A stretch of DNA of 30,475 nt from a virus. Location of the stretch: positions 1 to 30,475 of the IMG/VR virus record IMGVR_UViG_3300013131_000170, one strand, 5' to 3'. Both the position numbers and the translations under genes were made by a program. The notes beneath the pieces are model-generated. The model had not been told where the DNA came from. It saw only the letters and a program-made list of their open reading frames with translations, and did not search any database. Positions 8,993-21,912 of this stretch are shown here, one piece after another. The number at the start of each line of letters is the position of its first letter. Within the stretch, counting starts at the first letter, position 1.

Positions 8993-9162
8993 TCTTCAAC
9001 ATCCTCATCTGTGTATTCTGCCCATTCTTTGTGAACAGAATGAATGATAAACCCAGCATCAATTTGCTCCTTGATGAACCGAGACGCATCTAAATACTTG
9101 GTGAAAATTTTCTGCTGATAAGGCACTTGCCCATACCAAACTCGATACACAAACTTTTTCAT
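8989..9162 (-). CDS. Small hypothetical protein
   Basis: 57 residues from the ATG at 9160-9162: MKKFVYRVWYGQVPYQQKIF, ending DEDVEE. Basic, aromatic N-terminus and acidic C-terminus, no membrane segment. Overlaps as ATGA with both the upstream (9159) and downstream (8992) genes, which strongly supports it despite the short length. Confidence 0.65.
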   Translation of the reverse strand: MKKFVYRVWYGQVPYQQKIFTKYLDASRFIKEQIDAGFIIHSVHKEWAEYTDEDVEE

Positions 9163-9380
9163 TCTTCAACTCCGAAATGTTGTTTAATCTTACTAACATA
9201 AGTCGAAGCAGGTTCACGATGGTCTACTGCGTCAGCCACAACACCAGCACATTCTTTAACAATCAACTCGGCGAACTTTTCTGTAAACTCATTCAAGTCT
9301 GAGGCAGTCAAAGTAGTCCAAGTTTCTGGTACTGCTTGATCCAACGCCTTACCAGCAAGTAGTTGTATTCGTTCGTTCAT
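9159..9380 (-). CDS. MNERI-type small accessory protein (FAELIVKECA module)
   Basis: 73 residues from the ATG at 9378-9380 (MNERIQLLAGKALDQAVPE), which overlaps the upstream TGA as ATGA; the in-frame GTG at 9386 is less likely. It has EKFAELIVKECAGV and ends IKQHFGVEE. It is the closest relative of the 7541-7822 protein; their shared DNA blocks are 38 and 24 nt identical. Function unknown. Confidence 0.7.
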   Translation of the reverse strand: MNERIQLLAGKALDQAVPETWTTLTASDLNEFTEKFAELIVKECAGVVADAVDHREPASTYVSKIKQHFGVEE

Positions 9381-9601
9381 AACCACATATCCTTAGAAAA
9401 GATGGGTTGACAATTCTCACCAAGTTTATTGGTATCACACACCATCTCCATGTCCGATTCAAAGGGATAGTGTCGCAGAAGTGCCCTAGCACGATCCCGA
9501 ACCTCTTTAGGCACTCGCGGAGTCTTAGAAGGAATGAGAAGATCAAATAAGAATTCACGAGTCGAATTAACTGCGCGGAGTCTTTCGTATGGTAGTGTCA
9601 T
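9377..9601 (-). CDS. BPSL0761-like small protein
   Basis: 74 residues: MTLPYERLRAVNSTREFLFD, then TPRVPKEVRDRARALLRHYP. This matches my memory of a small family common in Burkholderiales (named after BPSL0761): MTxPYERTRAV, REFLxxL, TPRVP, RxRARxLLRHYPS. The function of that family is unknown. Its presence hints at genetic exchange with betaproteobacteria. The start overlaps the frameshifted gene at 9567-9736. Confidence 0.68.
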   Translation of the reverse strand: MTLPYERLRAVNSTREFLFDLLIPSKTPRVPKEVRDRARALLRHYPFESDMEMVCDTNKLGENCQPIFSKDMWL

Positions 9602-9736
9602 TTTTTGGTCCTAACATGAACTTTTTAAGAACTTCTTGTGCTTGCGTCAAATTTTTCACTTCATCATTATAGATCTGCTTCATAGGTCTTGCAAGCACAT
9701 CTAGTTAAAGTTTAGATAAGCAGGAACTTTCTTCAT
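9567..9736 (-). pseudogene. Probable frameshifted small gene
   Basis: The ATG at 9734-9736 overlaps the upstream TGA (TGATG) and has AAGGAAA before it, but gives only MKKVPAYLNFN before a TAG. In a second frame the reading continues LDVLARPMKQIYNDEVKNL...KTPRS to the stop at 9567. Adding one A in the run at the break would give a continuous protein of about 56 residues. Either the gene is broken or the assembly has a one-base error. The last 35 nt overlap the 9377-9601 gene. A separate start at 9683 (34 residues, no clear ribosome site) is the alternative. Confidence 0.45.
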
Positions 9737-10443
9737 CAAGCAATTTCCTTGATGCGGATAAGAGTGGTTTGCTTGCGACCTTTATAGTCGTCAGTCGACT
9801 TGACGGTACCCTTGACCTTCAACGAAGCACCCGCCTCAAGGTCAAAGTATTTCCAGACGTTGACTACGTTGCCTTTAGAGTCCTCGAAAGTAGAGATGAA
9901 CATCTGACCAAACTGTGAGTAGCCAAGATCACGACAGCGAACAAACTTAAGTTCGACCTCGATCTTGTCACCAGGCATGCCCAGCCACTCATTCGACTTC
10001 TCATGAGCCTGAGTCGCAGCAACTTCAGCGGGGGTCGGAAACGACCACGGACACGCCGCATCCTCAGGACGAGACCACTCAAGAGTAGTCTTCTCCGGGT
10101 TGGGCGCCCAGCCATCACGCAGATTGCCGTTGCCGCGGATTTTGTAGTGAGCGATGACTCCCAGCTTATCCACGACAAACCCGAAGATGACCGGAACGAT
10201 ACTGCGGGACCCGTAGTCAGCCCAGCGGGTGTGTGCAGTAACGGTGATTAGGACTTGCTCTTCAGCGAGAGGCACGCCGAAGTAGCGCATCGCCTCATAG
10301 GGCGTATGAAGGTTATTGGTGGTGTACTGCTTGTGCAGGAACTGCGCCTGCTTAGCAGTCTTGAAGAACCCATGGTTCTTATTCACCAGTCCCTTAAGGG
10401 ACATGAACAGGTCGCGATCTGCATCCGAGAAGTCGAAACTCAT
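9736..10443 (-). CDS. Hypothetical protein with possible C-terminal OB-fold
   Basis: 235 residues. The N-terminal 60 residues are helical (DADRDLFMSLKGLVNKNHGFF). The last 80 residues form alternating strands: KIEVELKFVRCRDLGYSQFG, then FISTFEDSKGNVV, ASLKVKGTVKSTDDYKGRKQT and TLIRIKEIA. The pattern SLKVKGTVKS...QTTLIRI resembles OB-fold nucleic-acid-binding domains, so single-stranded DNA or RNA binding is possible. Codons are much richer in G and C than in neighbouring genes, suggesting recent import. GGAG precedes the ATG, and a promoter cassette lies just upstream (10476-10503). Confidence 0.7.
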   Translation of the reverse strand: MSFDFSDADRDLFMSLKGLVNKNHGFFKTAKQAQFLHKQYTTNNLHTPYEAMRYFGVPLAEEQVLITVTAHTRWADYGSRSIVPVIFGFVVDKLGVIAHYKIRGNGNLRDGWAPNPEKTTLEWSRPEDAACPWSFPTPAEVAATQAHEKSNEWLGMPGDKIEVELKFVRCRDLGYSQFGQMFISTFEDSKGNVVNVWKYFDLEAGASLKVKGTVKSTDDYKGRKQTTLIRIKEIA

Positions 10444-10475
10444 CTACTACTCCGTTTAATTTCTCAACACTATCT

Positions 10476-10503
10476 ATTATACAGGTCTCAGCAGAAAGTG
10501 CAA
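10476..10503 (-). promoter_or_regulatory. Sigma70-type promoter upstream of the 9736 gene
   Basis: Minus strand TTGCAC (10498-10503), 16-nt spacer, TATAAT (10476-10481), then AGATAGTGTTGA, which recurs after the promoter at 22832. Part of the hairpin-promoter cassette family. Confidence 0.78.
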
Positions 10504-10514
10504 CCAGTATTTTA

Positions 10515-10556
10515 CTGTTGTTTAAACGCAACACTAGTGTTGTATAAAAACAACAG
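10515..10556 (-). terminator. Nested hairpins after the 10562 gene
   Basis: CTGTTG (10515-10520) pairs with CAACAG (10551-10556), enclosing a 14-nt palindrome CAACACTAGTGTTG (10529-10542). It lies between the stop of the 10562 gene and the -35 box at 10498. Weak terminator or promoter insulator. Confidence 0.45.
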
Positions 10557-10561
10557 ATAAA

Positions 10562-10885
10562 TCAAGCAGTTATCCAGGGGATTGCATTCTCAAATCTAAT
10601 AGATTCCGCCCCATCATAATCCTCGATGAGGAAGCGACTCCCCACAGGCACCCATACAACATATAGACCATCTACACCACCAAAATACTCATGTTCTCCA
10701 TACTTTTGGTGGCAGTAATTTACGATTGCACTAAGGTCCTCTTCATCATCCGGATTTTCCAACATTGCAATGACACGGGGGTCATAGAGAAGCTCCTCGA
10801 TGCCATGCCATGAATACCAACCTGCACCATATCCGGCAGAAATGAGAACACCAACCTTTCCGTCTCGAATTACCTTTTCCATCAT
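10562..10885 (-). CDS. Conserved phage hypothetical protein
   Basis: 107 residues. Recurring family features from memory: VIRDGKVGVLISAGYGAGWYSW, then a YCHQKYG segment, GGVDGLYVVWVPVGSRFLIEDYDG, and an ending in W-I-T. I have seen related proteins in phages and bacteria but know no function. ATGATG start overlaps the HNH gene stop at 10882. Confidence 0.75.
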   Translation of the reverse strand: MMEKVIRDGKVGVLISAGYGAGWYSWHGIEELLYDPRVIAMLENPDDEEDLSAIVNYCHQKYGEHEYFGGVDGLYVVWVPVGSRFLIEDYDGAESIRFENAIPWITA

Positions 10886-11433
10886 ATCACCCTTGAATGT
10901 TTGGGAATGCCCGTTTTCAAATATTCCATCTGATCAGCAAGAATGTTTCGATTCTGCAAAAGCAGATGTTCGTACAAGTTAGGAATGTAAGGAGCATAGC
11001 AAAGTTGCATTCTTGCTTGCTCAGGAGTTCGATTGCCTTTTTTGGTATTGCAATCAATACATGATGTAACTACGTTCATCCACCGATTGTCTCCCCCTTG
11101 CGCTCTGGGTAGGATATGATCACGCGACAATGAAGATGGCTTGAATGTTTTAGCACAGTATGCACACACATGACGATCTCGCCCAAAAAGAGTCTTATTG
11201 GATAGGTTAACACGTCCAAGATTTTCTTTTTTGTACTTGTGATTGCTTACTGCAATGATAGGATGAGTTTTGACTGTTGACTGAATGCCAGAATTTTGAA
11301 CCCCACCATAAAAAGTTTTGATGGGATCACCCAAAGTCCATAGAACTTTTTCGGTAGTGTAATAACTAACTGCATCTTTTACAGTCACCCATTCACGAGG
11401 CATACCGCCAACATCAAGTGTGAGGACCAACAT
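10882..11433 (-). CDS. HNH endonuclease
   Basis: 183 residues. The C-terminal half is an HNH domain: CAYC and CIDC zinc-binding pairs frame LSRDHILPRAQGGDNRWMN, with DH as the catalytic pair and the N of RWMNVV as the middle residue; CNTKKGNRTPEQA is the usual end of the HNHc fold. The N-terminal 85 residues have no recognised domain. It is free-standing, not inside an intron, and could be a homing-type or host-DNA nuclease. GGAG precedes the start. Confidence 0.9.
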   Translation of the reverse strand: MLVLTLDVGGMPREWVTVKDAVSYYTTEKVLWTLGDPIKTFYGGVQNSGIQSTVKTHPIIAVSNHKYKKENLGRVNLSNKTLFGRDRHVCAYCAKTFKPSSLSRDHILPRAQGGDNRWMNVVTSCIDCNTKKGNRTPEQARMQLCYAPYIPNLYEHLLLQNRNILADQMEYLKTGIPKHSRVI

Positions 11434-11471
11434 AATAGCTCCAAGATCAATTCATTGCATTATATATTTGG

Positions 11472-11544
11472 CCTCGGTGTACGGACTTGAACCGCATCTT
11501 CTGATTTTGGAGATCAGCGTGCTGCCATTAAACACTACACCGAG
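11472..11544 (-). tRNA. tRNA-Trp (anticodon CCA)
   Basis: 73 nt. Acceptor CTCGGTG/CACCGAG, anticodon arm CTGAT-CTCCAAA-ATCAG, discriminator G, encoded CCA at 11469-11471. Five nt separate it from tRNA-Arg. Confidence 0.93.
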
Positions 11545-11549
11545 ATTGG

Positions 11550-11623
11550 CCTGACTGCCAGGACTCGAACCTGGAATAAGGGTTTAGAAGACCCTTGTGA
11601 TAAATCCCTTTCACCACAGTCAG
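11550..11623 (-). tRNA. tRNA-Arg (anticodon TCT)
   Basis: 74 nt. Acceptor CTGACTG/CAGTCAG, anticodon arm AGGGT-CTTCTAA-ACCCT, T-arm CCAGG-TTCGAGT-CCTGG, encoded CCA at 11547-11549. Its first four bases overlap the end of the 11620-11922 coding region. TCT reads AGA, a codon frequent in AT-rich phages. Confidence 0.93.
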
Positions 11624-11922
11624 TTAGCTTCTACAACTTGAAAAATTGTCTTGCCCGGGCACCGTTCAATCGTATTCTTCAAAGCCTCTTCTTCACTAAA
11701 TCCTTGTGCAATAAACTCTTTATCATGTAGACCGTGAACTAGCCAATAAGTTTTGCCCGACTGGTTAACAACTTCGACTGTCACTAGCTTGGTTGTTTCT
11801 TCATCGATTTCAATTATACTATCATCTTGCTTACGAGATTGCAACCAGTTTCGAATGGCAGAAGCAGTAAAGTACATAACTACTAAGTTAAAAAGCGCAG
11901 ATATCACATCTAGAATAGTCAT
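11620..11922 (-). CDS. Small membrane-anchored hypothetical protein
   Basis: 100 residues from the ATG at 11920-11922 (MTILDVISALFNLVVMYF); AAGGAG lies 7 nt before it, so the longer frame to 11955 is rejected. Residues 3-25 form one N-terminal membrane anchor. The remainder is a soluble domain: VTVEVVNQSGKTYWLVHGL, then an acidic helix with EEALKN. Its TGA stop (11620-11622) lies inside the 5' end of tRNA-Arg. Function unknown. Confidence 0.72.
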   Translation of the reverse strand: MTILDVISALFNLVVMYFTASAIRNWLQSRKQDDSIIEIDEETTKLVTVEVVNQSGKTYWLVHGLHDKEFIAQGFSEEEALKNTIERCPGKTIFQVVEAN

Positions 11923-11992
11923 GAGAGCTCCTTTATTTGTATATATTATGCACATTCTAGATGTATTGCAATCCTGTTGTAAACTTTTTACA

Positions 11993-12000
11993 CATAAATA
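11993..12000 (+). promoter_or_regulatory. T4-type late promoter motif
   Basis: CATAAATA, 7 of 8 matches to the T4 late box TATAAATA, 21 nt before the ATG of the first rightward gene. The same octamer occurs at 16202-16209. Late transcription in T4 depends on gp55, gp33 and the gp45 clamp; gp45 is encoded here at 26543. Confidence 0.6.
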
Positions 12001-12021
12001 AAGTGAACATAGGAGGTCATC

Positions 12022-12564
12022 ATGACAAAAAAGTTAGCGTCGCTACTTTTTGTTATATCTTCATTAGCAGTAGCACAAACTGATGTGATAGTTACAGATT
12101 CCACTTCTAGAAGTTCTGTGGAAACAAGAAGCACTAGCATCAACGAAACAACGGTTAAGTCACCACCAGCGTCCGCTATCTCACCAAGTATGAACATTCT
12201 TAACAATGATGTTTGTACGACTGGTGTTAGCGGCTCTGTTCAAACGCAAATTCTCGGCATTTCTGGTGGAAATACAGTTCGAGACATGAATTGTGAAAGA
12301 TTAAAACTTTCTAAGACATTATTTGATATGGGCATGAAAGTTGCTGCGGTGTCTACACTCTGTCAAGACGATAGAGTTTTTACTGCCATGATGAATGCTG
12401 GCACACCATGCCCTGTTGACGGTAAGATTGGTGAAGAAGCAAAGAAAATTTGGGATGCTAATCCAGAACGTAAACCCGTCCCAATGAAAGAGGCCTCGAA
12501 TGACACACTTTGGAAAACAATTTCTGGTTTCCTTAGCGTTGCTCTTCTGTTCATCCTTCTCTAA
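12022..12564 (+). CDS. Secreted, C-terminally membrane-anchored phage protein
   Basis: 180 residues. A signal peptide (KKLASLLFVISSLAVAQT, probable cleavage after AVA or AQ) is followed by a Ser/Thr-rich linker, then a conserved-looking core: VCTTGVSGSVQTQ, ISGGNTVRDMNCERLKLSKTL, AVSTLCQDDRVFTAMMNAGTPCP. Residues 163-180 are a hydrophobic C-terminal segment. I remember similar cores in T4-like phages of water bacteria, without function. A strong AGGAGGT lies before the start. The last 65 nt also encode the signal peptide of the next gene in another frame. Confidence 0.75.
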   Translation: MTKKLASLLFVISSLAVAQTDVIVTDSTSRSSVETRSTSINETTVKSPPASAISPSMNILNNDVCTTGVSGSVQTQILGISGGNTVRDMNCERLKLSKTLFDMGMKVAAVSTLCQDDRVFTAMMNAGTPCPVDGKIGEEAKKIWDANPERKPVPMKEASNDTLWKTISGFLSVALLFILL

Positions 12565-13747
12565 TAGCCAAACTCAACTACCTCTACCACTAAGCGCATC
12601 GTCTAGTGGTCAAACGATGACAGCGCCCGGTGGTGGGGTTACGTTTGGACCTTTTGGGGGATCGTGGATATTCAGTTCAACCGTTTCAAATGTGCTTGAG
12701 TCTGTTGGGTTTCCAGTGATCGCATATGGACTTAGTTATGGATGGCACTATTTTCATTATGGTTCTAGGGGTGGAGAAACTACCGCTATTGCAGATGTTT
12801 CCTTGACTAGTAAGTCCGGCGAAGACTTATATCGCCAACAGTACACCTACAACCTCTACAACAACATCTCTAGAGAAAGCGTAAGCGTAACATTCAGAGA
12901 AACGCCAGGAAATGAGTTAGGAACTTTCAAAATAGCTTTCACATATCTTGAGGGTGACAGGTGGCCCGGAGCATACGGAAACTATGGACCAAGAATTCGA
13001 GATGTATATGCAAACATTCTTTATAAACCAAACGAATGCATAATCAATCCTTTAAGCAACATTTCTTGTGAGGGTTATCAAAAGGCGTATTTAAATCAGC
13101 AATGTTCTTTAAATGTGCTTTATAGTCCTCAATGTGTTGGATACCAACAAGCATTTTTTAATCAACAATGTTCAGCAAATCCACTATACAGTTCTGAATG
13201 TGTTGGATATCAACAAGCATTTCTTAATCAACAATGTTCAGCGAATCCCATGTTTAATCCACAGTGTGCTGGATATATTGTAAAGATTGAATTACCAGAT
13301 GCACTACCATCGGATCCTATTAAAGATTCAATGCCTAAAGTGATTGCTGATCCTATTATTGAAAATGTTTTATCATCGAAATCAGAAACAACACAAACTG
13401 TAGAGATACCTACACCACCAAAATCAAGAGAGGAAGCCAGAAAGCAAGCAAGAGAAACAAGAAAAGTAGAAGAAGCTAAAAAAACGACACCACAAGTGTC
13501 TATCGCTAGAAGACAAGAAACAAATGTCCCAAAAGGACCACAAGAACAACTAGTCCAATCTATACAAGATACTGGGCCTGATATTTCATCATACACTATA
13601 GTAAAACTTCCTGACATTCCATTTTATCCAACAACTGAAATATATACCAGTTCCAGAATTCGTGACAATGAAAGAGCTTTGAGAATGATGAATCAAAGAT
13701 CGGACAGAATTCACGGGAGAATGGTAGATGAGCAATACCAAAGATAA
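12500..13747 (+). CDS. Secreted repeat protein with Cys-rich 22-residue repeats
   Basis: 415 residues. A signal peptide spans residues 1-25 (FLVSLALLFCSSFSNS), then a Gly-rich beta domain (GGGVTFGPFGGSW). Residues 190-255 hold three 22-residue repeats of the form CxGYQxAxxNQQCSxNxLYSxx, each with two cysteines, followed by a charged helical stretch (REEARKQARETRKVEEAKK) and a basic C-terminus. AGAGG lies before the ATG at 12500, which starts inside the previous gene. The structure suggests an extracytoplasmic or surface-binding protein. A virion or host-envelope role is inferred from its late, prelysis position. Confidence 0.72.
   Translation: MTHFGKQFLVSLALLFCSSFSNSQTQLPLPLSASSSGQTMTAPGGGVTFGPFGGSWIFSSTVSNVLESVGFPVIAYGLSYGWHYFHYGSRGGETTAIADVSLTSKSGEDLYRQQYTYNLYNNISRESVSVTFRETPGNELGTFKIAFTYLEGDRWPGAYGNYGPRIRDVYANILYKPNECIINPLSNISCEGYQKAYLNQQCSLNVLYSPQCVGYQQAFFNQQCSANPLYSSECVGYQQAFLNQQCSANPMFNPQCAGYIVKIELPDALPSDPIKDSMPKVIADPIIENVLSSKSETTQTVEIPTPPKSREEARKQARETRKVEEAKKTTPQVSIARRQETNVPKGPQEQLVQSIQDTGPDISSYTIVKLPDIPFYPTTEIYTSSRIRDNERALRMMNQRSDRIHGRMVDEQYQR
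13067..13264 (+). repeat. Three in-frame tandem 66-nt repeats
   Basis: Three copies of a 66-nt unit encoding CxGYQxAxxNQQC-type repeats within the 12500 gene, with a fourth partial unit beginning at 13265. Copies two and three are most alike at DNA level. Confidence 0.85.
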
Positions 13748-14348
13748 GAATATAGATGAAAAAATTGAGAAGTTAGAAGCAGCAGTAGATTCAAATACGG
13801 TAATAAGTGTTGGCGGATTTTCATTTACGCCAGCAAAACTTATGATCGCTGGTACAATAATTTCAGGTATGCTTGGTGGATTATATGCCACCTTTGAAGT
13901 CTATAAAGATTACATAAACATGAAAGAAGCAATTCAAAACTATACTGCGCCTGATTTTAGTGAATATGAAAAAAGAATTATTGTTTTAGAACAAAATAGT
14001 GAAAAGGGGCTTGAATACACCAGAGAGATCAACACTAATCTAAAAGGTGATATTCGTCGAATAGAACAAATTGTTGATAGTGTTGAACGCGGAAGTAAGA
14101 CTGCTCAACGTGAAGTTGAAAAAGACATTAACGACATTCGGCGACAAGTTGACGGCGAAATAAAAGAGATTCGTCGATCTACCGATTCGCAAGTAAGAGA
14201 GATGCAAAAACAAGTAGATGCTACAGTACAGACGGTGAATGAAAGGGTTAACAGAATAGAAAGAGAAACGAACGCTGAACTTAGAACAATACGCCGTGAA
14301 GTTGATGATAAAATCAAGAAAGCGTTGGATAATCCATTAGCAAATTGA
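13728..14348 (+). CDS. Membrane-anchored coiled-coil protein
   Basis: 206 residues. A short coiled coil (KIEKLEAAVDSN) precedes one membrane segment (residues about 36-56, KLMIAGTIISGMLGGLYATF), then more than 120 residues of long charged coiled coil with repeated R-R-x-V-D and EIRR elements. It overlaps the upstream gene by 20 nt. The design, one anchor and a long rod, would suit spanning or organising the envelope. It resembles coiled-coil proteins near lysis genes in other T4-like phages, but I do not know a tested function. Confidence 0.7.
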   Translation: MSNTKDKNIDEKIEKLEAAVDSNTVISVGGFSFTPAKLMIAGTIISGMLGGLYATFEVYKDYINMKEAIQNYTAPDFSEYEKRIIVLEQNSEKGLEYTREINTNLKGDIRRIEQIVDSVERGSKTAQREVEKDINDIRRQVDGEIKEIRRSTDSQVREMQKQVDATVQTVNERVNRIERETNAELRTIRREVDDKIKKALDNPLAN

Positions 14349-14350
14349 TA

Positions 14351-15139
14351 ATGAAGTATAAATCAGTTTTTATAAGCGATATTCATCTTGGCACAAAAGA
14401 TTGCAAAGCAGACATTCTATTAGATTTTCTTTCTAACACTGAGTGTGACAATCTTTACCTTGTGGGTGACATAATTGATGGGTGGAAAGTTCAACGAAAT
14501 AAATTAAAATGGAAAGAATCTCATACAAGAGTAATCCGCAAAATTCTTGGATTTTCTAAAAAAGGAACCAAAGTTGTTTATGTGGCAGGAAATCATGATG
14601 AATTTCTTCGTCTTCTTATTCCATACAATGTGGTTTTTGGAAATATTGAAATTGTGAATCAGTATATACATATGGGGATCGATGGAAAAAGATATCTGGT
14701 TACACATGGAGATTTCTTTGATGGAGTGGTTAGATTGCATCGGTGGTTGTCTTTTTTGGGTGATGCCTCTTATGACTTTATTCTATCTTTTAATTCAAAA
14801 TTCAATTGGTTGCGTCATAAGATGGGTTTCGGATACTGGAGTTTATCCAAGTATCTAAAAGTGAAAGTCAAAAGAGCAGTAGATTTTATTTTTAAGTTTG
14901 AAAACACCTTGTCTGAATACTGCAAAAAAAGAAAGTTTGATGGTGTTATTTGTGGGCATATACATCATGCCGAAATAAAACAAATCGATGGTGTTACTTA
15001 TATGAATGATGGAGATTGGGTAGAGTCTTGCTCTGCTTTGGTTGAACACATGGATGGTAGATGGGAAGTAATTAACTGGTCCGAGGTAATGAATGTTAAT
15101 AGTGCTTCTAATAACAGCGATGCATGTGAACTATCCTGA
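14351..15139 (+). CDS. plcP-like: Metallophosphoesterase resembling PlcP phospholipase C (LpxH-like superfamily)
   Basis: 262 residues from the ATG at 14351-14353 (an upstream in-frame TTG is less likely). All five calcineurin-type metal motifs are present: SDIHLG (9-14), GDIID (39-43), GNHDE (80-84), THGD (118-121) and GHIHHA (202-207). Between them lie YWSLSKYLK and NDGDWVESCSALVEH, which I associate with the PlcP-type branch of COG2908 rather than classical LpxH. Known PlcP enzymes of alphaproteobacteria cleave phospholipid head groups under phosphate starvation, giving diacylglycerol for the glycosyltransferase Agt. Here a glycosyltransferase of the right type follows, with one small gene between. 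Alternatives: UDP-2,3-diacylglucosamine hydrolase (LpxH) or a lipid-A-modifying enzyme. No signal peptide. Likely late expressed. Confidence 0.78.
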   Translation: MKYKSVFISDIHLGTKDCKADILLDFLSNTECDNLYLVGDIIDGWKVQRNKLKWKESHTRVIRKILGFSKKGTKVVYVAGNHDEFLRLLIPYNVVFGNIEIVNQYIHMGIDGKRYLVTHGDFFDGVVRLHRWLSFLGDASYDFILSFNSKFNWLRHKMGFGYWSLSKYLKVKVKRAVDFIFKFENTLSEYCKKRKFDGVICGHIHHAEIKQIDGVTYMNDGDWVESCSALVEHMDGRWEVINWSEVMNVNSASNNSDACELS

Positions 15140-15296
15140 AGATGTGCCAGCGAGAATGACTATGCAATTTTCAACTATTCAACAATGTGAAGAAGCAAGA
15201 AAAACTATTAATTATTGGATAAAATTTAAACAGTTTAAGGTGGAATCTGAATGCAAAGAATTACAATCATTACCGACGCTTGGGAACCGCAAGTAA
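15093..15296 (+). CDS. Small exported or membrane-associated protein between plcP-like and agt-like genes
   Basis: 67 residues. GAGGT precedes the ATG at 15093. MLIVLLITAMH is a short signal-like segment; FSTIQQCEEARKTINYWIKF follows, with a second cysteine at ESECKEL, so one disulfide is possible. The gene overlaps both neighbours (47 and 46 nt), tying the three together in translation. No named family; small secreted proteins with QCExA motifs are common in phages. Confidence 0.6.
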   Translation: MLIVLLITAMHVNYPEDVPARMTMQFSTIQQCEEARKTINYWIKFKQFKVESECKELQSLPTLGNRK

Positions 15297-16210
15297 ACGG
15301 AGTAGTTAGAACATATCAAAACATTAGAAAGTTTGGTGATATTAACATCATTCATCATAACACGCTCGATTTTACAAAAGTCAAATTACCTTTTTACAAA
15401 GAAATCGATGTTGTTCTGAACCCATGGTTAATAAGACCCTTACTAGATGAGGCAATGATCAACAAGGATAAAATGCACATAGCAACAGAAGGTCCATTGG
15501 GCTTATATGCCAATATGCATCTCTCAGAGAATGGTTATTCGTTTTCAACTTGTTTTCATACAAATTTTCCTGCGTATCTAAAAACAAGATTTAAAGTTCC
15601 TGAAGATGTATCATTTAGATTTTATAAATGGTTTCATGATCGAGCACATAGAACGCTTGTACCATCAAAACAAACAATTGACGAATTGCAATTGAGAGGA
15701 TTTAAGAACTTGATGTTCTGGAGTAGAGGTGTAGACACTGAAGTATTTAATCCTTCAAAGAGAAGAGATTTAGGTGACTACATTCTCTGTGTTTCTAGAG
15801 CCGCACAAGAAAAAGGGTTAGACGATTTTTGTAAATTAGATTACCCCAATAAAGTTCTTATTGGTGACGGTCCATATCTAAATACACTCAAAAAGCGATA
15901 CCCGGATGTAAAATTTCTAGGTAAACTCGAAGGCGAAGAATTGGCTAAGTGGTATGCATCTGCACGAGTATTTGTATTTCCAAGTAAGACAGACACTTTT
16001 GGTGTAGTATTACTAGAATCATTAGCATGTGAGGTGCCTGTAGCATCTTATGACATGGCTGGGCCTAAAGAGGTGATTGAAAATGGTATAAACGGATATA
16101 GAGGTGACAACTTACAATCTTGTTTAGATCGATGTTTACATTTAGATTTTAAACAAACTAACCTGTCTTTTGATTGGGAAATAGTTTTAAATCAACTAAC
16201 GCATAAATAA
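15251..16210 (+). CDS. agt-like: GT4 glycosyltransferase resembling Agt lipid glycosyltransferase
   Basis: 319 residues. ITDAWEPQVNGVVRTYQN at the N-terminus is the acceptor-side motif of the MgtA/Agt branch of GT4 enzymes. The C-terminal donor domain has LCVSRAAQEKGLDDF, GDGPYLNTLKKRYPD, and FPSKTDTFGVVLLESLACEVP, the E-x7-E region in its D-x7-E form. Known Agt enzymes transfer sugar from a UDP-sugar to diacylglycerol, replacing phospholipid with glycolipid in phosphate-starved bacteria. The pair with the metallophosphoesterase at 14351 is the main support for that reading; a general GT4 acting on LPS is the alternative. AAGGTGG lies before the ATG. Confidence 0.8.
   Translation: MQRITIITDAWEPQVNGVVRTYQNIRKFGDINIIHHNTLDFTKVKLPFYKEIDVVLNPWLIRPLLDEAMINKDKMHIATEGPLGLYANMHLSENGYSFSTCFHTNFPAYLKTRFKVPEDVSFRFYKWFHDRAHRTLVPSKQTIDELQLRGFKNLMFWSRGVDTEVFNPSKRRDLGDYILCVSRAAQEKGLDDFCKLDYPNKVLIGDGPYLNTLKKRYPDVKFLGKLEGEELAKWYASARVFVFPSKTDTFGVVLLESLACEVPVASYDMAGPKEVIENGINGYRGDNLQSCLDRCLHLDFKQTNLSFDWEIVLNQLTHK
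16202..16209 (+). promoter_or_regulatory. T4-type late promoter motif
   Basis: CATAAATA overlapping the end of the glycosyltransferase gene and 17 nt before the i-spanin ATG. It would give the lysis cassette its own late start. The octamer also encodes H-K-stop, so coincidence is possible. Confidence 0.5.
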
Positions 16211-16225
16211 CACAAAAGGACAACC

Positions 16226-16660
16226 ATGTGGATTCTGGAATGGCTTCCTAACTGGATTTTTTATGCTATTCTATTATTAGGTTTGCTAGCTTTTGCTGCA
16301 ACCTATCTTTTGAAACTGATTCCTATTCCGGCATTGTATGTTTACAGAACACCTATACAAATTGCATCTGTTCTGATGATTGTATTCGGCGTTTACATGT
16401 CGGGATCTATTGCAAATAATGAATCTTGGTTGGCTAAGGTTCGCGAAGTAGAAGCAAAGTTGGCTGAAGCAGAAGCAAGAGGTGCAATAGAAACAGTTAA
16501 AGTTGTTGAAAGAATTGTGGTGCAAGAAAAAATCGTAAGAGAAAAAGGTCAAAACACTATTCAGTACATTGATAGAGAAGTGGTCAAGTATGATAATAAA
16601 TGCGAAATACCCGAACCTTTTGTTGATGCTCACAATCAAGCGGCAGGCAGAAACAAATGA
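16226..16660 (+). CDS. Putative inner-membrane spanin (Rz-like)
   Basis: 144 residues. Two hydrophobic segments (WIFYAILLLGLLAFAATYLL; IQIASVLMIVFGVYMSG) are followed by a 60-residue coiled coil (VREVEAKLAEAEARGAIETV) and a Cys-containing tail in the periplasm. The next gene is a lipoprotein overlapping by one ATGA, the usual i-spanin/o-spanin arrangement. Two rather than one membrane segment differs from lambda Rz, so this is an inference from the pair and the adjacent endolysin. Role: fusing inner and outer membrane at lysis. Confidence 0.7.
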   Translation: MWILEWLPNWIFYAILLLGLLAFAATYLLKLIPIPALYVYRTPIQIASVLMIVFGVYMSGSIANNESWLAKVREVEAKLAEAEARGAIETVKVVERIVVQEKIVREKGQNTIQYIDREVVKYDNKCEIPEPFVDAHNQAAGRNK

Positions 16661-16923
16661 AACTTGCTATACTTTTTACTCTAGTTTTTTTAGCGGGGTG
16701 TGCCACTAAACCTGTTCCTGTAAAGCAAAAGTTTCCTAGTGCACCGACGACTTTGCTGCAACGATGCCCTGATTTAAAACTGCTGTCCAAAGATGTAAAG
16801 TTGAGTGATGTGGCTAAAACAATAAACGAGAATTACTCATTGTATCACGAATGTGCAATTAAAAGTCAAGGTTGGATTGATTGGTACAATGCACAAAAGA
16901 AAATTTTTGAGGAAGTAAAATGA
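16657..16923 (+). CDS. Outer-membrane lipoprotein spanin (Rz1-like)
   Basis: 88 residues. Signal peptide with lipobox LAGC (LVFLAGCATKP), so it is lipidated at Cys14 or 15 and sorted to the outer membrane. The Pro-rich start (KPVPVKQKFPSAP) is typical of o-spanins; the C-terminal half is a helix with two cysteines. It overlaps the i-spanin gene and the endolysin gene as ATGA. Confidence 0.75.
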   Translation: MKLAILFTLVFLAGCATKPVPVKQKFPSAPTTLLQRCPDLKLLSKDVKLSDVAKTINENYSLYHECAIKSQGWIDWYNAQKKIFEEVK

Positions 16924-17540
16924 TTACACAAGAACAACTAAAACAACTACTACCCAAGAATCCTTACGTACAGCATTGGCATAGCGCGCTTGATCAATTA
17001 CTTCCAGAGTATGAAATTGACACTCCTCAGCGAATTGCTGCATTTGTTGCTCAATGTGCCCATGAGTCGGGAGGATTCACAGCGTTAGTTGAAAATCTAA
17101 ACTATCGATGGCAATCGCTTCGTAAAGTGTTTCCTAAGTATTTTCCCAACGATCAAATTGCACAAGATTACGCAGGAAGGCCTAATAAACAAGAAGCAAT
17201 TGCCAATCGCATCTATGCAAGTCGAATGGGTAATGGTGATGAAGCTAGCGGAGATGGGTTTAGATTTCGAGGAAGAGGATTGATTCAACTTACGGGTCGT
17301 CACAACTACACCTGGTTTGCTGCATCGCTTGAAATCAGCCCTGAAGAGGCCACAGAATATCTAACTACCTTCGAGGGCGCAGCACAATCTGCGTGTTGGT
17401 TTTGGGAAACCAATAAGTTAAACCAATGGGCAGATAAAGGTGATATTCTCACATTGACCAAGCGTATCAATGGCGGAACAATAGGCTTGGATGATCGTAT
17501 CAAGCATTATGAGCATGCTCTACACGTTTTAGGAGTTTGA
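16920..17540 (+). CDS. Endolysin, glycoside hydrolase family 19
   Basis: 206 residues. GH19 chitinase-type lysozyme fold: VAQCAHESGGF holds the catalytic Glu49, then ANRIYASRMGNGDEASGDGFRFRGRGLIQLTGRHNY (family signature regions) and TLTKRINGG near the end. It cuts the glycan strands of peptidoglycan at lysis. No signal peptide, so it should need a holin to reach the wall. GAGGA lies before the ATG; the gene overlaps the o-spanin by ATGA. Confidence 0.93.
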   Translation: MITQEQLKQLLPKNPYVQHWHSALDQLLPEYEIDTPQRIAAFVAQCAHESGGFTALVENLNYRWQSLRKVFPKYFPNDQIAQDYAGRPNKQEAIANRIYASRMGNGDEASGDGFRFRGRGLIQLTGRHNYTWFAASLEISPEEATEYLTTFEGAAQSACWFWETNKLNQWADKGDILTLTKRINGGTIGLDDRIKHYEHALHVLGV

Positions 17541-17541
17541 A

Positions 17542-17805
17542 ATGGTAAGTGATAAAAAGCTCTTTTGGTCACTCCTAATATTGCTATTCATTCCACTAAC
17601 ACTTGCATTCTTTGCTTCAGATAGATTTAGGTATCCTTGTCAGAATCCCAAGAATTGGGAAACTGAGGTGTGCAAGAAACCTCAATGTGAAGTGACAAGG
17701 ACATGCCCTGAACAAATTTTCAAGAATAAGGTTGCAGTTGAAAATGTAGTCCCTGCACAATGTAATACCTGTCAACCTCCTGCAGGAGTAAAAAATGGAA
17801 AATAA
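17542..17805 (+). CDS. Small membrane-anchored Cys-rich protein in lysis cassette
   Basis: 87 residues. One N-terminal membrane segment (LFWSLLILLFIPLTLAFFA) and a tail with seven cysteines, partly as CNTC and CEVTRTC, probably oxidised in the periplasm. TAGGAG precedes the start. A lysis accessory, perhaps antiholin-like, by position only. Confidence 0.65.
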   Translation: MVSDKKLFWSLLILLFIPLTLAFFASDRFRYPCQNPKNWETEVCKKPQCEVTRTCPEQIFKNKVAVENVVPAQCNTCQPPAGVKNGK

Positions 17806-18241
17806 GCCTCCCTTCGTTTATACTGAAGAACAGTTGATGGCGCGTCTTAAGTTTTTCGTAGGCGTATGTCTTGCATTGACTTTGACTGGAATCGTATTTG
17901 TTGTCTTGTATTCAATCATCTTTGTGACACAACCGCTTGATGCAATGTCTCCTATTGATCAAAAGTTCTTTGAACTTATTGTACCTATTGCAACATTTTT
18001 AACGGGAACCTTATCAGGTATCATGTTGGCAGGAACAAGCAAAGAAGATAAGGAAGCGATGCTTGCTGCACAGAAACAAGCAACAGAATCATTTAAAACA
18101 ACTATGGAAGAAGTGAAGAAACCAGTTAAGGTCGAAAGGCAAGAACCTGCATTAGGATCTGCTATGCACATGGGTGGAAATGTCGTTACCGGTTTTAATG
18201 GAAAGCTAGCTCCCCCTCCTGCTCACCAACCTGAACTATGA
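17795..18241 (+). CDS. Two-segment membrane protein, possible holin
   Basis: 148 residues. Segments at about 20-46 (FFVGVCLALTLTGIVFVVLY) and 63-85 (IVPIATFLTGTLSGIMLAG), then a charged helix and a Pro-rich tail. Two-helix topology next to an endolysin fits a class II holin, but the long C-terminal tail and the presence of a second candidate (18238) leave the assignment open. AGGAG precedes the ATG. Confidence 0.65.
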   Translation: MENKPPFVYTEEQLMARLKFFVGVCLALTLTGIVFVVLYSIIFVTQPLDAMSPIDQKFFELIVPIATFLTGTLSGIMLAGTSKEDKEAMLAAQKQATESFKTTMEEVKKPVKVERQEPALGSAMHMGGNVVTGFNGKLAPPPAHQPEL

Positions 18242-18480
18242 TGTCTAAACTTGTAACTATCTTCCAATCTACTGAGACCTCACAAGGAATCAGTAGCAAG
18301 AGGGTAGTTACATTTCTTGCTTTTGTGTTTTGCTCAATAGCTTTCTTTGCTAATATCTTTTTAGGATACGAGGTTGATCATCATCTGTATGATGGCATGA
18401 TGTATATAGCAATAGCAGGGTTGGGTGTAACCGTAGCAGAAAGATTTGCAAACAAAAACGAACCTAAGGAACCAAAATGA
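18238..18480 (+). CDS. Two-segment small membrane protein, possible holin
   Basis: 80 residues. Segments VVTFLAFVFCSIAFFANIFL and GMMYIAIAGLGVTVAERFA; charged C-terminus. Size and topology are typical of small phage holins. Two adjacent ATG codons (18238, 18241) are possible starts. It overlaps the neighbouring genes. Confidence 0.65.
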   Translation: MMSKLVTIFQSTETSQGISSKRVVTFLAFVFCSIAFFANIFLGYEVDHHLYDGMMYIAIAGLGVTVAERFANKNEPKEPK

Positions 18481-18695
18481 AAAAAATTCTATTTATCGCT
18501 CTTGTAGTTGGATCTATTCCTTTACTAAATTATCACGGAGTCTCTTTTGCTGCAGAAGTTAAGCGAGTTTGTGTAGACAAGATCACTAATGACGGAAAGA
18601 AAGTCATTGGGAAGGATGGTAAACCTGTGCAGGATTGTAAAGAAATCAAGGTGCATAAAAAACTAGAGGGAACTCAGGTCCCTCCCAAGAAGTAA
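18477..18695 (+). CDS. Small secreted protein
   Basis: 72 residues with a signal peptide (KKILFIALVVGSIPLLNYH...SFAA, cleavage after FAA). The mature part is basic, with two cysteines (VCVDK, QDCKE) and DGKKVIGKDGKP, a short beta-hairpin-like repeat. Last gene of the rightward block; ATGA overlap with the gene before. Function unknown. Confidence 0.65.
   Translation: MKKILFIALVVGSIPLLNYHGVSFAAEVKRVCVDKITNDGKKVIGKDGKPVQDCKEIKVHKKLEGTQVPPKK
18666..18684. terminator. Hairpin at the convergent junction
   Basis: GAGGGA-ACTCAGG-TCCCTC, a 6-bp stem inside the last codons of the 18477 gene, just before the stop codons of two converging genes meet (18695/18696). No T-tract, so it is a weak terminator candidate. 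Confidence 0.35.
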
Positions 18696-19520
18696 TCAAG
18701 TCCAGAGATACTTTCTAACCTTAATCAGACGAATAAGCATCTCTTCTTCTTCGCGCTCGTATCGTTCTTCAACTTCACGTAGGAGATCAAGAGACTTTGT
18801 ACTCTCTGCTTTTTGTTCGGGTGTAGTATCTTCGATAGACAAAAATCCTCCTCCTTCCTCACGCCTACGGTCACATAGTTTAGACCATCCGCTAACATCG
18901 TAGGGGTCAGGACGGGTAGGATAAACTTGTGTCCACCAGGTGTAGAGTTCTAGAGTTTCTTTTGCACCTTTTGCTTGATAGGTTTCTTTTCCATACCCCT
19001 CATCCTCAGGTGACATGCCCCAGGTTTCGTCCATCTTCAGGTTGATTGCCCAGTTGAGGTAATCTAAACCTGCTTCTTTATTGCGATAGGTGCGAGTACG
19101 AAACCATCCAGTTCCCCAAAAAGGAACCTTATATTTTTTCCTAGCCTCTTCATCAAAGCGGTAGTTGGATGCAGCAAGTTCAACTTCAACAAAGTTGACC
19201 AGCTCATTGAACATGCAATGTAGCATTCGAGTGTCCATCTCATGCCACTTGTACTTGGGCAATTTTGAGGTGAGGGTATGAGTACGAGTTACAAATCGGT
19301 TTACAAGAGCATACTTGGCTGAGTAAATCTTATCTGGAATGAACATAATAGCAGTTTGAATCCTATCAAGACCTTCTTCAGCCAGCCAAAAACGAAAAGG
19401 ATTTTTCATTTCTGCTTCGAGTTGCCATTTTGCCCATTCTTTAGAAGTGCCTGCAGGAATCTTATTAGTTCCTCGCAACCAATCTGCAAACTTAGTGCAT
19501 GACCAATACTGTTTTCTCAT
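18696..19520 (-). CDS. Conserved phage hypothetical protein
   Basis: 274 residues, soluble, rich in Trp and charged residues. MRKQYWSCTKFADWLRGTNK, then WHEMDTRMLHCMFNELVNFVE and EAGLDYLNWAI. I recall proteins with this Trp-rich pattern in several T4-like and other large phages, without function. The C-terminal 40 residues are a charged helix (REVEERYEREEEEMLIRLI). The stop abuts the stop of the convergent late operon. Confidence 0.75.
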   Translation of the reverse strand: MRKQYWSCTKFADWLRGTNKIPAGTSKEWAKWQLEAEMKNPFRFWLAEEGLDRIQTAIMFIPDKIYSAKYALVNRFVTRTHTLTSKLPKYKWHEMDTRMLHCMFNELVNFVEVELAASNYRFDEEARKKYKVPFWGTGWFRTRTYRNKEAGLDYLNWAINLKMDETWGMSPEDEGYGKETYQAKGAKETLELYTWWTQVYPTRPDPYDVSGWSKLCDRRREEGGGFLSIEDTTPEQKAESTKSLDLLREVEERYEREEEEMLIRLIKVRKYLWT

Positions 19521-19705
19521 CTTTTCTCCACTATTACAGCGTCTTGTTTTCGGACTATGTTAGCAAATCCCGTAGGTTCACGACTCATGTAACAATCATC
19601 GTATTCTCTCAATAAAGGAACCTCTTGACCCACCAGATCGCGATACCACATAAGAGAATCGGAACAGGTGATTATTTTCAGCATAGGAGTTTCATTGTGT
19701 GTCAT
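19517..19705 (-). CDS. Small hypothetical protein
   Basis: 62 residues from the ATG at 19703-19705 with GAGAG before it; an internal start at 19684 (MLKIITCSDSLMWYRDLVGQ) would give 55 residues and may be the true one, as related short phage proteins as I recall them begin close to that point. The frame further upstream runs towards tRNA-Pro and is rejected. The protein has CSD, WYRDLVGQEVPLL and a C-terminal beta pair. ATGA overlap with the gene below. Confidence 0.6.
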   Translation of the reverse strand: MTHNETPMLKIITCSDSLMWYRDLVGQEVPLLREYDDCYMSREPTGFANIVRKQDAVIVEKR

Positions 19706-19732
19706 GTAACTCTCACAAAGTTGATTGTCTGG

Positions 19733-19805
19733 TCTCGGACACAGGACTCGAACCTGCACCTTCCTGCTCCCAAAGCAGGTGGACTACCTATTATCCCAAT
19801 CCGAG
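19733..19805 (-). tRNA. tRNA-Pro (anticodon TGG)
   Basis: 73 nt. Acceptor CTCGGAT/GTCCGAG, anticodon arm CCTGC-TTTGGGA-GCAGG, standard TTCGAGT T-loop, encoded CCA at 19730-19732. Confidence 0.93.
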
Positions 19806-19812
19806 AAGATGG

Positions 19813-19884
19813 TGCCCCCATCCGGACTTGCGCCGAACTCTGATGCTTACAAGGCATCTGCATCGCTATCTATGCTTTGGAGGC
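19813..19884 (-). tRNA. tRNA-Thr (anticodon TGT), atypical elbow
   Basis: 72 nt. Acceptor GCCTCCA/TGGGGGC, D-stem GCAT/ATGC, anticodon arm GATGC-CTTGTAA-GCATC, T-stem TTCGG/CCGGA, encoded CCA at 19810-19812. The D-loop AGATAGCG lacks the usual GG and the T-loop CGCAAGT lacks T54 and T55. The 5' 15 nt overlap the 19870 coding region. Confidence 0.8.
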
Positions 19885-20037
19885 GTAACTGTTGGCAGAA
19901 CGTTCGTCAAAATCTGTATCCTCTGGCTCAGGAATATCATAATATTCATCTTTTAGTACAACTTCTCTAAGCCACTCTGCAACTTCAGGATCTAGATTTT
20001 CTAATTGAATATCGAGTTTTTTTGTTGGATCAATCAT
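19870..20037 (-). CDS. Small acidic protein ending inside tRNA-Thr
   Basis: 55 residues from the ATG at 20035-20037 with AGGAGA before it: MIDPTKKLDIQLENLDPEVA, acidic middle (DEYYDIPEPEDTDFDE). The TAG stop falls in the D-arm of tRNA-Thr, so the last codons are read from tRNA sequence. Function unknown. It begins 18 nt after the kinase stop. Confidence 0.65.
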   Translation of the reverse strand: MIDPTKKLDIQLENLDPEVAEWLREVVLKDEYYDIPEPEDTDFDERSANSYASKA

Positions 20038-20054
20038 GTTATCTCCTGAGAATT

Positions 20055-20765
20055 TTAAGACTTTTTCAATTGGCTGTCAATCCATTTTTGAGCTTCAGGT
20101 GTGTGTTTTTTTGAGGCAACGACTTTTCTAAAATGGTTATGAACATCAACAAGTCTTTTTTGGTGTTTTGCTCTTTCACTAGGAGAAGCATGAAGCATAT
20201 CTATAGAATTGTCAACTTCATGAAAATTTGAACCGAACATATTTTTGTAATGTTCTTTTGCGTTATGTACATCAGTCCATTTTTGTTGACGAACTTTTTC
20301 TGGTACTTCTCTACCACCAGCCTGACCTCTTATAATGTTTCTTTTTATAGAAGTTTCATTATCAGTATGCACAAATACCATATGCGTCTGATATCCCTGA
20401 GATTCTAAGTGGTCTTTCATTGCTTTAATTTTATGATGATCATCGCCTGTTCCGTTGATAATCAATCCATTCTTACCTTGTAAAGATAGTTTCTTTTTAA
20501 GGTCTGTAGTGTGTTTAGATTTTGTTCTTAAAAAATCTCTTTTAGGTTGTTCGCTTTCTGGCATTTTTGGATCAAGACCGTGTTTTTTCATTGAATGCTC
20601 AAAAGCCACATCAGAATTAATTTCTCGCAAACCATGACCACCAACAGTCTTTTTCATTACATAGTCTTTACCAGAACCCGGAGCACCAGCCATAAAGACT
20701 GCTTTAAAAATACCTTGATCGTGAACACCCTCTTCCAATGAAATAAAAGATTTAAAGTTAAGCAT
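20055..20765 (-). CDS. Capsid-targeted P-loop kinase (zeta-toxin/polynucleotide-kinase-like)
   Basis: 236 residues. The first 13 residues (MLNFKSFISLEEG) match the T4 capsid targeting sequence pattern (F-x-x-F-I-x-E), with a likely prohead-protease cut after L-E-E12. Then a P-loop GAPGSGKD (27-34), INSDVAFE as the acidic strand of zeta-toxin/AAA_33 kinases, IINGTGDD and a VFVHTDNETSIKRNIIR lid-type segment. These suggest phosphorylation of a small molecule or nucleic acid end. In T4, proteins with such leaders are packaged in the head and injected. CCTAAATA lies 8 nt before the ATG, too near for a normal late promoter. No clear ribosome site. Confidence 0.78.
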   Translation of the reverse strand: MLNFKSFISLEEGVHDQGIFKAVFMAGAPGSGKDYVMKKTVGGHGLREINSDVAFEHSMKKHGLDPKMPESEQPKRDFLRTKSKHTTDLKKKLSLQGKNGLIINGTGDDHHKIKAMKDHLESQGYQTHMVFVHTDNETSIKRNIIRGQAGGREVPEKVRQQKWTDVHNAKEHYKNMFGSNFHEVDNSIDMLHASPSERAKHQKRLVDVHNHFRKVVASKKHTPEAQKWIDSQLKKS

Positions 20766-20822
20766 AGATTTTTATTTAGGTCTTTTGATATGCAAAAATG
20801 GCTCCGGATCCTGGGAGAAAGT

Positions 20823-21833
20823 TCAATGTTTAATTTGACTCCAAACTCTACTACGAATGTCGGCAGTCAAACTGTCAGGCAGCGGAACATAGTCTAATTC
20901 CAATGCCATGTCCTTGCCATTGCGGAATGCCCAATCAAAAAACTTCAATACTTCTTGACTGGTTTCTTTGTTGCGAGGATTACGGTACATGATGATGAAA
21001 CTGGCTGAACTCACAGGCCATGCTTGTGGATGCTTTTGATCCACGATACTCAACCCCATACCGGGCACACCAAACCAATCTGCACCATCTGCTGCTGCGG
21101 CAAAACTCTTTTCGTCTGGATCGACAAAGTTACCAGCCTTGTTCTGAAGTTTGAGATGAATCATGTTGTTTTTCTTGGCATAGGCATACTCAACATATCC
21201 GATTGCACCCTTGACACGACGAACATTACCTGCCACACCTTCATTGCCCTTGCCACCTACACTATTGGCTGCGGGCCACTTCACTGCGGCACTACGACCC
21301 ACTCGTTTTTCCCATTCAGGACTGACCACAGTCAAATAGTCTGTCCAATTGAATGTTGTGCCCGATCCATCAGCACGATGTACCACTGTGATGGTTTGAT
21401 TGGGCAACCGTTTGCCGGGATTAAGAGCTGCTAGTCTTAGATCATTCCAATTAGTGATATTGCCCATGAAAACTTCAGCCAATACTGGTCCGGTGATGCG
21501 TAGTTCACCGGGTTTGAATCCGTCGAGATTGACAATGGGCACAGTACCGCCAATAATAGCAGGAAACTGTACCTGATCACGTTTTTCTAAATCTTCACCT
21601 TTTACTGGTGCATCAGTAGCACCAAATGCCACTGTACCGGCGTTGATTTGACGAATGCCACCTGAACTGCCAATGCTTTGATAGTTTAAGCCGACACCGG
21701 TTTGCTTTTTATAGGCTTCGGCCCATTTGGCGTAAATGGGATATGGGAATGTAGCACCAGCACCTGTGATATCTGCTGCTTGCGTACTCAAAACCGTCAA
21801 TGCACATGTAATGCTTAAAAATAATTTTTTCAA
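20823..21833 (-). CDS. pstS: Phosphate-binding protein PstS
   Basis: 336 residues, the length of bacterial PstS. Signal peptide KKLFLSITCALTVLSTQAAD, then TGAGATFPYPIYAKW (phosphate-loop start), QSIGSSGGIRQI and AFGATDAP, and VHRADGSGTTFNWTDYL, all PstS ligand-contact motifs. It binds inorganic phosphate in the periplasm and hands it to the host PstCAB transporter. The start is TTG (21831-21833) with AAGGAG before it. It follows the tRNA array and has a Pho-box-like repeat upstream. Phage pstS is known from marine cyanophages; this copy is of proteobacterial type and was probably taken from the host. Confidence 0.96.
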   Translation of the reverse strand: MKKLFLSITCALTVLSTQAADITGAGATFPYPIYAKWAEAYKKQTGVGLNYQSIGSSGGIRQINAGTVAFGATDAPVKGEDLEKRDQVQFPAIIGGTVPIVNLDGFKPGELRITGPVLAEVFMGNITNWNDLRLAALNPGKRLPNQTITVVHRADGSGTTFNWTDYLTVVSPEWEKRVGRSAAVKWPAANSVGGKGNEGVAGNVRRVKGAIGYVEYAYAKKNNMIHLKLQNKAGNFVDPDEKSFAAAADGADWFGVPGMGLSIVDQKHPQAWPVSSASFIIMYRNPRNKETSQEVLKFFDWAFRNGKDMALELDYVPLPDSLTADIRSRVWSQIKH

Positions 21834-21859
21834 TTTGATCTCCTTGTTTAGGGCTATAA

Positions 21860-21896
21860 AATATATATTTTAGACTATATTACAAAACCATTACAA
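21860..21896 (-). promoter_or_regulatory. Pho-box-like promoter of pstS
   Basis: Minus strand TTGTAAT-GGTT-TTGTAAT (21879-21896): two identical 7-mers with an 11-nt period, the geometry of a PhoB box (CTGTCAT repeats). AT-rich -10 candidates lie at 21860-21867, 11-13 nt downstream. There is no -35 hexamer, as expected for PhoB-activated promoters. It suggests control by the host phosphate sensor. Confidence 0.6.
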
Positions 21897-21912
21897 CGCA
21901 AAATAAATTTGG

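Follow-up and report, generated by a model that had tools for sequence, protein, structure and literature searches.

A viral PlcP–glycosyltransferase gene pair that probably forms a membrane-lipid remodeling module

The closest described counterpart of the system reported here is the bacterial plcP-agt operon. In Pseudomonas aeruginosa, PlcP (PA3219), 46% identical to the PlcP of Sinorhizobium meliloti, is encoded directly upstream of the glycosyltransferase Agt1 (PA3218); mutants and glycosyltransferase expression in Escherichia coli showed that the enzymes of this locus form monoglycosyldiacylglycerol (MGDG) and glucuronic acid diacylglycerol (GADG) (PMC8528852). A second report states that, in the isolates examined, no gene lies near plcP more often than a putative agt, and shows that the SAR11 gene yields both MGDG and GADG when expressed in E. 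coli (PMC4796936). Phosphorus-related genes of another kind, pstS and phoH, are carried by T4-like cyanophages; PstS is thought to serve phosphate uptake (PMC2984593). Here, we describe a plcP-like gene, a small overlapping gene and an agt-like gene in IMG/VR virus record IMGVR_UViG_3300013131_000170, a stretch of 30,475 bases that we analyzed whole and refer to as the window. In enzyme families, gene order and adjacency, this locus matches both the P. aeruginosa PA3219-PA3218 operon and the type 2 plcP clusters of SAR11 HTCC7211 and Erythrobacter NAP1. It differs from the bacterial operon in lying within a phage genome, in the presence of a microprotein in part of the copies, in largely missing the Pho box and in forming phage clades of its own. 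The cyanophage genes share its phosphorus theme, and pstS is found in the window too; what sets the present genes apart is that they would act on membrane lipid composition.

All three genes lie on the plus strand. The first encodes a 262-aa calcineurin-type metallophosphoesterase, a predicted phospholipase C acting on glycerophospholipids (14351–15139; the start is the ATG at 14351, and a TTG at 14345 likewise lies in the open frame). The second encodes a phage-only microprotein, of 67 aa here (15093–15296); this gene starts within the 3′ end of plcP and runs on into the 5′ end of agt. The third encodes a 319-aa GT4-family glycosyltransferase, predicted to act on diacylglycerol (15251–16210). 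An initial annotation, made from the DNA letters alone, had pointed out these same open reading frames as a possible PlcP/Agt-like pair; we confirmed their coordinates, and the phosphoesterase motifs that it quoted are present in the protein. With a probability of roughly 0.74, we consider the genes to be a phage-borne module that remodels phospholipid via diacylglycerol into glycolipid, and whose history includes a bacterial origin, the gain of a microprotein and the loss of PhoB control. On this proposal, the overlapping genes would work as a single unit. PlcP would cut the phosphorylated head group off host phospholipids to leave diacylglycerol. The Agt-like enzyme would transfer a hexose or hexuronic acid to this diacylglycerol, with a UDP-sugar as donor, and the product would be a glycolipid of the MGDG or GADG type that lacks phosphorus. 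Host enzymes could recycle the released phosphoryl head group. The module would descend from the bacterial plcP-agt operon and would since have followed its own phage lineage, part of which would have gained the microprotein between the two enzymes. Host PhoB control has apparently been lost, and the module would be active in infection whatever the phosphate state of the host.

Several lines of evidence place the phosphoesterase with PlcP. It exceeds the Pfam cut-off for Metallophos (48.3 versus 21.5) and shares 53% identity with a P. aeruginosa protein whose gene precedes that of a glycosyltransferase and 46% with an S. meliloti protein encoded near luxR-type and acyl-homoserine-lactone-synthase genes. 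We take these two proteins, which are 47% identical to each other by our own computation, to be PA3219 and SMc00171, respectively, and the cyclase gene neighboring the P. aeruginosa pair to be PA3217; gene order, mutual identity and locus numbers are the basis for equating them with the studied PlcPs. In a quick tree of 124 rows (cellular sequences thinned to every second locus plus chosen ones, viral sequences clustered at 82%), nine LpxH proteins form a clade of their own at support 100, on a long branch, and the window protein falls among the PlcPs; 45 of the 119 forks are weak. Fifty-eight of the 64 phage representatives make up one group (support 93); over the whole tree, the phage label has to change three times. 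The LpxH model TIGR01854 gives the window protein 40.4 bits against a cut-off of 190, a score outside LpxH membership. As a control, we searched nine genomes in which cellular relatives of the glycosyltransferase occur: eight have a true LpxH at 217–296 bits, and six have lower-scoring paralogues at 33–54 bits, a range that takes in the score of the window protein. The motif GNRD occurs in all nine LpxH rows, versus GNHDE in 56/64 phage and 41/51 cellular rows. Seven residues that we take to be metal ligands, on the basis of the LpxH site and invariant alignment columns, are all kept in the window protein (D10, H12, D40, N81, H119, H203 and H205), as they are in 62/64 phage, 51/51 cellular and 9/9 LpxH rows, the two exceptions being gapped at the first three positions. 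Tree, gene order and the same-genome LpxH control thus agree, and assignment to the PlcP group, clearly outside LpxH, is strongly supported at the level of sequence.

The glycosyltransferase exceeds the Pfam cut-offs for Glyco_trans_1_4, Glycos_transf_1 and Glyco_transf_4 and is 38% identical to the enzyme encoded downstream of P. aeruginosa plcP (Agt1). For scale, the P. aeruginosa study puts Agt1 and Agt2 at 41% and 35% identity to Phaeobacter Agt (PMC8528852). Using an alignment of 17 phage and two cellular glycosyltransferases as query, we scanned a collection of one genome per species and kept the best 80 of at least 586 cellular relatives. A PlcP homologue lies directly upstream on the same strand in 67 of these 80 nearest loci; two more have PlcP adjacent in the opposite orientation, and 11 have no PlcP in the retrieved flank. 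Phage GT4s form one clade both in a quick tree (52 rows, support 93; 31 of 91 forks weak) and in a careful one (17 rows, support 97/89, among 49 chosen rows, with very long outgroup branches and an outgroup that does not fall on one side of a branch); the SAR11 PlcP and Agt were left out of the PlcP and GT4 trees. Phage GT4s group with cellular Agts, most of them plcP-linked, and away from E. coli WaaG, WaaB, WcaC and WcaI and from Acinetobacter mgtA. Trees and plcP-adjacent gene order agree in placing the enzyme away from those of the lipopolysaccharide (LPS) core, and its predicted membership of the Agt group is strongly supported. Neither of the two placements by sequence that the initial annotation had named as refuting its reading, the phosphoesterase within LpxH or the glycosyltransferase within LPS-core enzymes, was borne out.

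The pair is not peculiar to the window phage, and many viral copies use a different glycosyltransferase. We scanned IMG/VR with the window phosphoesterase (best 80 of 403 relatives, one being the window's own phage) and with that of Pelagibacter phage Mosig (best 80 of 109). Directly 3′ of PlcP, the first scan found GT4 in 43 loci, GT2 in 32, neither in three and no room in two, and the second found GT4 in 44, GT2 in 14, neither in 13 and no room in nine, so that an adjacent downstream glycosyltransferase is present in 75/78 and 58/71 loci with room, respectively. GT2 belongs to a separate Pfam family, Glycos_transf_2; Glyco_transf_21 also exceeds its cut-off in all four that were scanned. Reverse scans recovered the same order. 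With GT2 as query (best 80 of 538), PlcP lies directly upstream in 75/80 loci, the other five being cut by the contig end; with GT4 (best 80 of 556), PlcP lies directly upstream in 65; in nine others it is on the same strand but at a greater distance upstream, and in six it was not found. Pooling the first four viral scans with three phage records gave 231 distinct viral PlcP sequences, followed by GT4 (115), GT2 (84), GT1_3 (one) or none (21), or cut off (10); because this pool includes loci found through the glycosyltransferases, figures from the PlcP-only scans are the fairer ones. All counts favor near relatives, since every scan kept at most 80 loci; contigs recur across scans, and near-copies are present (for example, L011–L017 and L006–L009). 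The recurrence of the order in most related viral loci examined puts it beyond chance, and the search of other phage genomes proposed with the initial annotation has thus turned up the pair repeatedly, with the small gene between in part of the loci.

Exchange between GT4 and GT2 takes eight parsimony changes among 54 rows of the PlcP tree, in which many inner forks are weak. That two unrelated glycosyltransferases alternate beside one phospholipase-like enzyme is the best argument for a single shared pathway. A cellular source of GT2 was sought in 143 sampled genomes of one class, other groups not being searched, and a single genome matched at E ≤ 1e-15, with 30% identity; GT2 may therefore be peculiar to phages. 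We read the module as a recurring viral version of an established bacterial pathway; some of its members have one component that is new. Two further loci, a gut phage contig (L084, 3781–5705) and a Parabacteroides sequence (L092, 3983–5904), share another version of the pair, in which PlcP is followed directly by a GT1_3-type enzyme; they differ in this third glycosyltransferase family and in their separate PlcP branch. Three viral loci have no glycosyltransferase after PlcP and instead carry a ribonucleotide reductase small-chain gene, directly next in L052 and one gene later in L060 and L062 (in L062 by match to the others).

The new component is the microprotein, whose family is about 57 aa long in most relatives and has two invariant cysteines. 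It occurs in 91/319 viral loci and 0/103 cellular loci; among 310 viral loci with PlcP, it is present in 89 and absent from 221. A viral scan with a single member returned 56 loci, all of which were kept and which do not include the window's own contig. PlcP abuts upstream in 56/56, and the gene directly 3′ encodes GT2 in 38, GT4 in 17 and neither in one. Across eight independent close pairs, changes outside the overlaps number 14, 8 and 37 at codon positions 1, 2 and 3, and the changed codons comprise 30 synonymous and 22 non-synonymous cases; with this third-position bias, the microprotein behaves as a coding gene. Its AlphaFold2 model is a beta-beta-alpha-beta arrangement with a mean predicted local distance difference test (pLDDT) score of 86.6, and since the hydrophobic start is modeled as a strand, we do not call it a membrane segment. 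The model has no PDB structure match at E ≤ 0.001. The single viral-library match at that threshold is an uncharacterized phage protein (41% identical). Matches in Pfam and PHROGs were weak, the best being 0.009 and 7.9e-05, respectively, and fell to families that are either unnamed or unrelated. By these sequence criteria, the small gene is evidently a real, phage-only and optional part of the module. We speculate that its product serves as a scaffold or hand-over aid between PlcP and the glycosyltransferase, and it offers a handle for testing how PlcP and its partner cooperate.

Cellular and viral copies also differ upstream of plcP. We scored upstream regions against the E. coli Pho-box consensus, although hosts may use other boxes, with first-order random sequences rather than exact shuffles as controls. 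At 11 or more of 14 matches, 29/71 cellular plcP regions have a site (0.5 expected) versus 5/60 viral representatives (1.9 expected); at 12/14, the figures are 17/71 (0.0 expected) versus 0/60 (0.1 expected), and at 10/14, 47/71 (9.2 expected) versus 21/60 (13.3 expected). Pho-box control is a trait of cellular plcP clusters and not of the PlcP protein family. With the boxes common in cells and largely missing in phages, the module seems freed from phosphate control, a comparison to be read with the caveat that phage genes often lie inside operons with promoters farther upstream. As for Pho-box control of the phage module itself, the window gives it no support (two weak sites versus 4.0 expected, fewer than chance), and the 60 viral representatives show a slight excess only at 10–11/14; we rejected it.

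Named phages carry parts of this system. Of the 50,697 records in a phage collection, six contain a PlcP-like match; those with names belong to Mosig and, in two records, to Synechococcus phage S-SRM01. Mosig (EXVC030M) resembles the window in having a 50% identical PlcP with an overlapping small ORF, adjoining a pstS-like gene; it differs in that no glycosyltransferase is adjacent, the small ORF is another sequence and the PlcP is labeled a putative UDP-2,3-diacylglucosamine hydrolase (LpxH). In this cultured SAR11 phage, the pstS-like gene, the PlcP-like gene and the adjacent small ORF span 3897–5913 of the retrieved locus (L082), with a 2OG-Fe(II) oxygenase gene following. The S-SRM01 gene (L083, 5001–5705) is diverged, at 40% identity, with no glycosyltransferase annotated adjacent; it lies near a psbA split in two, with endonuclease genes around. 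For the GT4, we found no named phage with an enzyme of this kind among the 20 records that matched: five cover 80% of the protein at 23–31% identity, namely two Acinetobacter records, two unannotated gut contigs and Enterococcus phage Efs 1-1-1 (25%). One Acinetobacter record (phage MD-2021a, L483) contains a stretch with prc, bcrC, iscX and ndk that resembles a bacterial chromosome filed as phage.

Our literature search, which covered open-licence papers and no preprints, did not turn up a description of any phage with the pair. Papers list lpxH among viral genes, and one ocean-wide survey of viral metabolic genes left out those on contigs that bear "lipopolysaccharide island" genes, a class that takes in glycosyltransferases (PMC11360552). 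Such a module can easily go unnoticed, since database records label its first gene a lipid A enzyme and that survey set aside contigs carrying genes like its second.

Given the strength of the PlcP and Agt assignments, lipid conversion by the window pair is likely. Several observations weigh against the module as we have drawn it. The chemistry assigned to the phage copies is predicted from the known bacterial pathway. The substrate of the GT4 cannot be read from sequence, as its Pfam matches are broad and its NCBIfam matches fall far under their cut-offs. Nor does the fold fix it: the predicted GT-B structure (pLDDT 89.9) matches many GT4 enzymes in PDB, with BshA enzymes nearest and two lipid enzymes, PimA and DGD2, ranking lower among the first 50. 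The forks dividing Agts from other GT4s have moderate support (94/78), a recognizable glycosyltransferase is missing from 16 of the 149 viral loci that had room for one in the PlcP-only scans taken together, and Mosig and S-SRM01 bear PlcP, annotated as LpxH-type, without a GT4 match. Finally, the window pair lies just ahead of lysis genes, a placement that points to expression late in infection, by which time little DNA synthesis would remain in this phage.

The benefits that we consider most likely are a saving of phosphorus in infection and a change to the envelope, and we favor neither clearly over the other. Phosphate salvage is a plausible purpose of the module, and the initial annotation had tied it to a pstS at 20823. 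We confirmed that gene (20823–21833, minus strand), whose product, the Pst phosphate-binding protein, scores 361 bits with the NCBIfam model TIGR00975 (cut-off 205); it lies outside the module and shares its theme only. As a steady partner, pstS is weak across the four scans, being found in the retrieved flanks of 4/80, 8/80, 8/78 and 0/78 loci (flanks differ and contigs recur), and the four loci of the first count include the window phage itself. Nor does a phospholipase C reaction yield inorganic phosphate: it releases a phosphorylated head group, and a further host step, which the initial annotation left out, would be needed to free phosphate. The lysis-gene neighborhood of the window pair and the scarcity of Pho boxes at viral plcP genes likewise make phosphate supply for DNA a less certain purpose.

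That the benefit lies instead in the envelope, with glycolipid and diacylglycerol, taking the place of phospholipid before lysis, weakening the inner membrane or altering receptors and so promoting lysis or excluding other phages, is a reading that we rate as quite possible, if somewhat doubtful. In the window, spanin-like and endolysin genes come directly after the pair, and the cellular Pho boxes are largely missing from phage copies. Lipids can affect adsorption, as a Ruegeria mutant without amino lipids adsorbs a phage about 4-fold less (PMC9938194). Against this, an endolysin homologue occurs in the retrieved flanks of only 8/80 related loci, so the lysis neighborhood is not general, and pstS is present in the window phage and beside plcP in Mosig.

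A further alternative is that the pair acts in the same pathway but chiefly supplies a sugar lipid needed by the phage itself, for instance as a substrate of other phage proteins, with products that differ between the GT2 and GT4 forms. It would accommodate the swapping of two unrelated glycosyltransferases in one slot and the phage-only protein that accompanies both forms; we saw no phage protein that uses such a lipid, none having been searched for, and we consider this explanation unlikely. Least probable by far, and rejected at the sequence level on model score, trees (where the glycosyltransferase groups with neither WaaG nor WaaB), the GNRD/GNHDE split and the same-genome control, is that the phosphoesterase is LpxH and the glycosyltransferase an LPS-core enzyme, so that lipid A or LPS would be what the phage modifies. 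Database labels of relatives (UDP-2,3-diacylglucosamine diphosphatase or hydrolase) and weak matches of the window protein to the LpxH model and to LpxH structure 5k8k would fit this.

Returning to the phospholipid-to-glycolipid module, we tentatively extend it, at slightly less than an even chance, to a large group of uncultured tailed phages. These would carry a self-contained device of PlcP and an interchangeable GT4 or GT2, with a phage-invented microprotein that couples or steers the two enzymes in part of them, and the device would turn host phospholipid into glycolipid during infection regardless of phosphate. If phages do remodel the membrane lipids of infected hosts, such cells could account for part of the glycolipid measured in phosphorus-poor waters, and their phosphorus would be diverted into virus particles.

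Around the module, the window carries a T4-like replication set on the minus strand, comprising a DnaB-like helicase, UvsX, DNA polymerase, clamp loader and sliding clamp. Directly 3′ of the GT4 gene on the plus strand are two short genes (16226–16923). The first (16226–16660) matches PHROGs phrog_4952, and the second (16657–16923) is a candidate for an Rz-like spanin, with phrog_456 as its second-best PHROGs match. The endolysin gene follows on the same strand (16920–17540; phrog_181, 258 bits). A Zeta-toxin/AAA-type kinase-like gene at 20055–20765 adjoins pstS, and 13 tRNA genes, every one on the minus strand, lie within 4991–23269. Some PlcP-bearing viral contigs exceed 200 kb, namely those behind L011 (353 kb), L033 (323 kb), L081 (250 kb) and L059 (208 kb), and jumbo phages may therefore carry plcP too.

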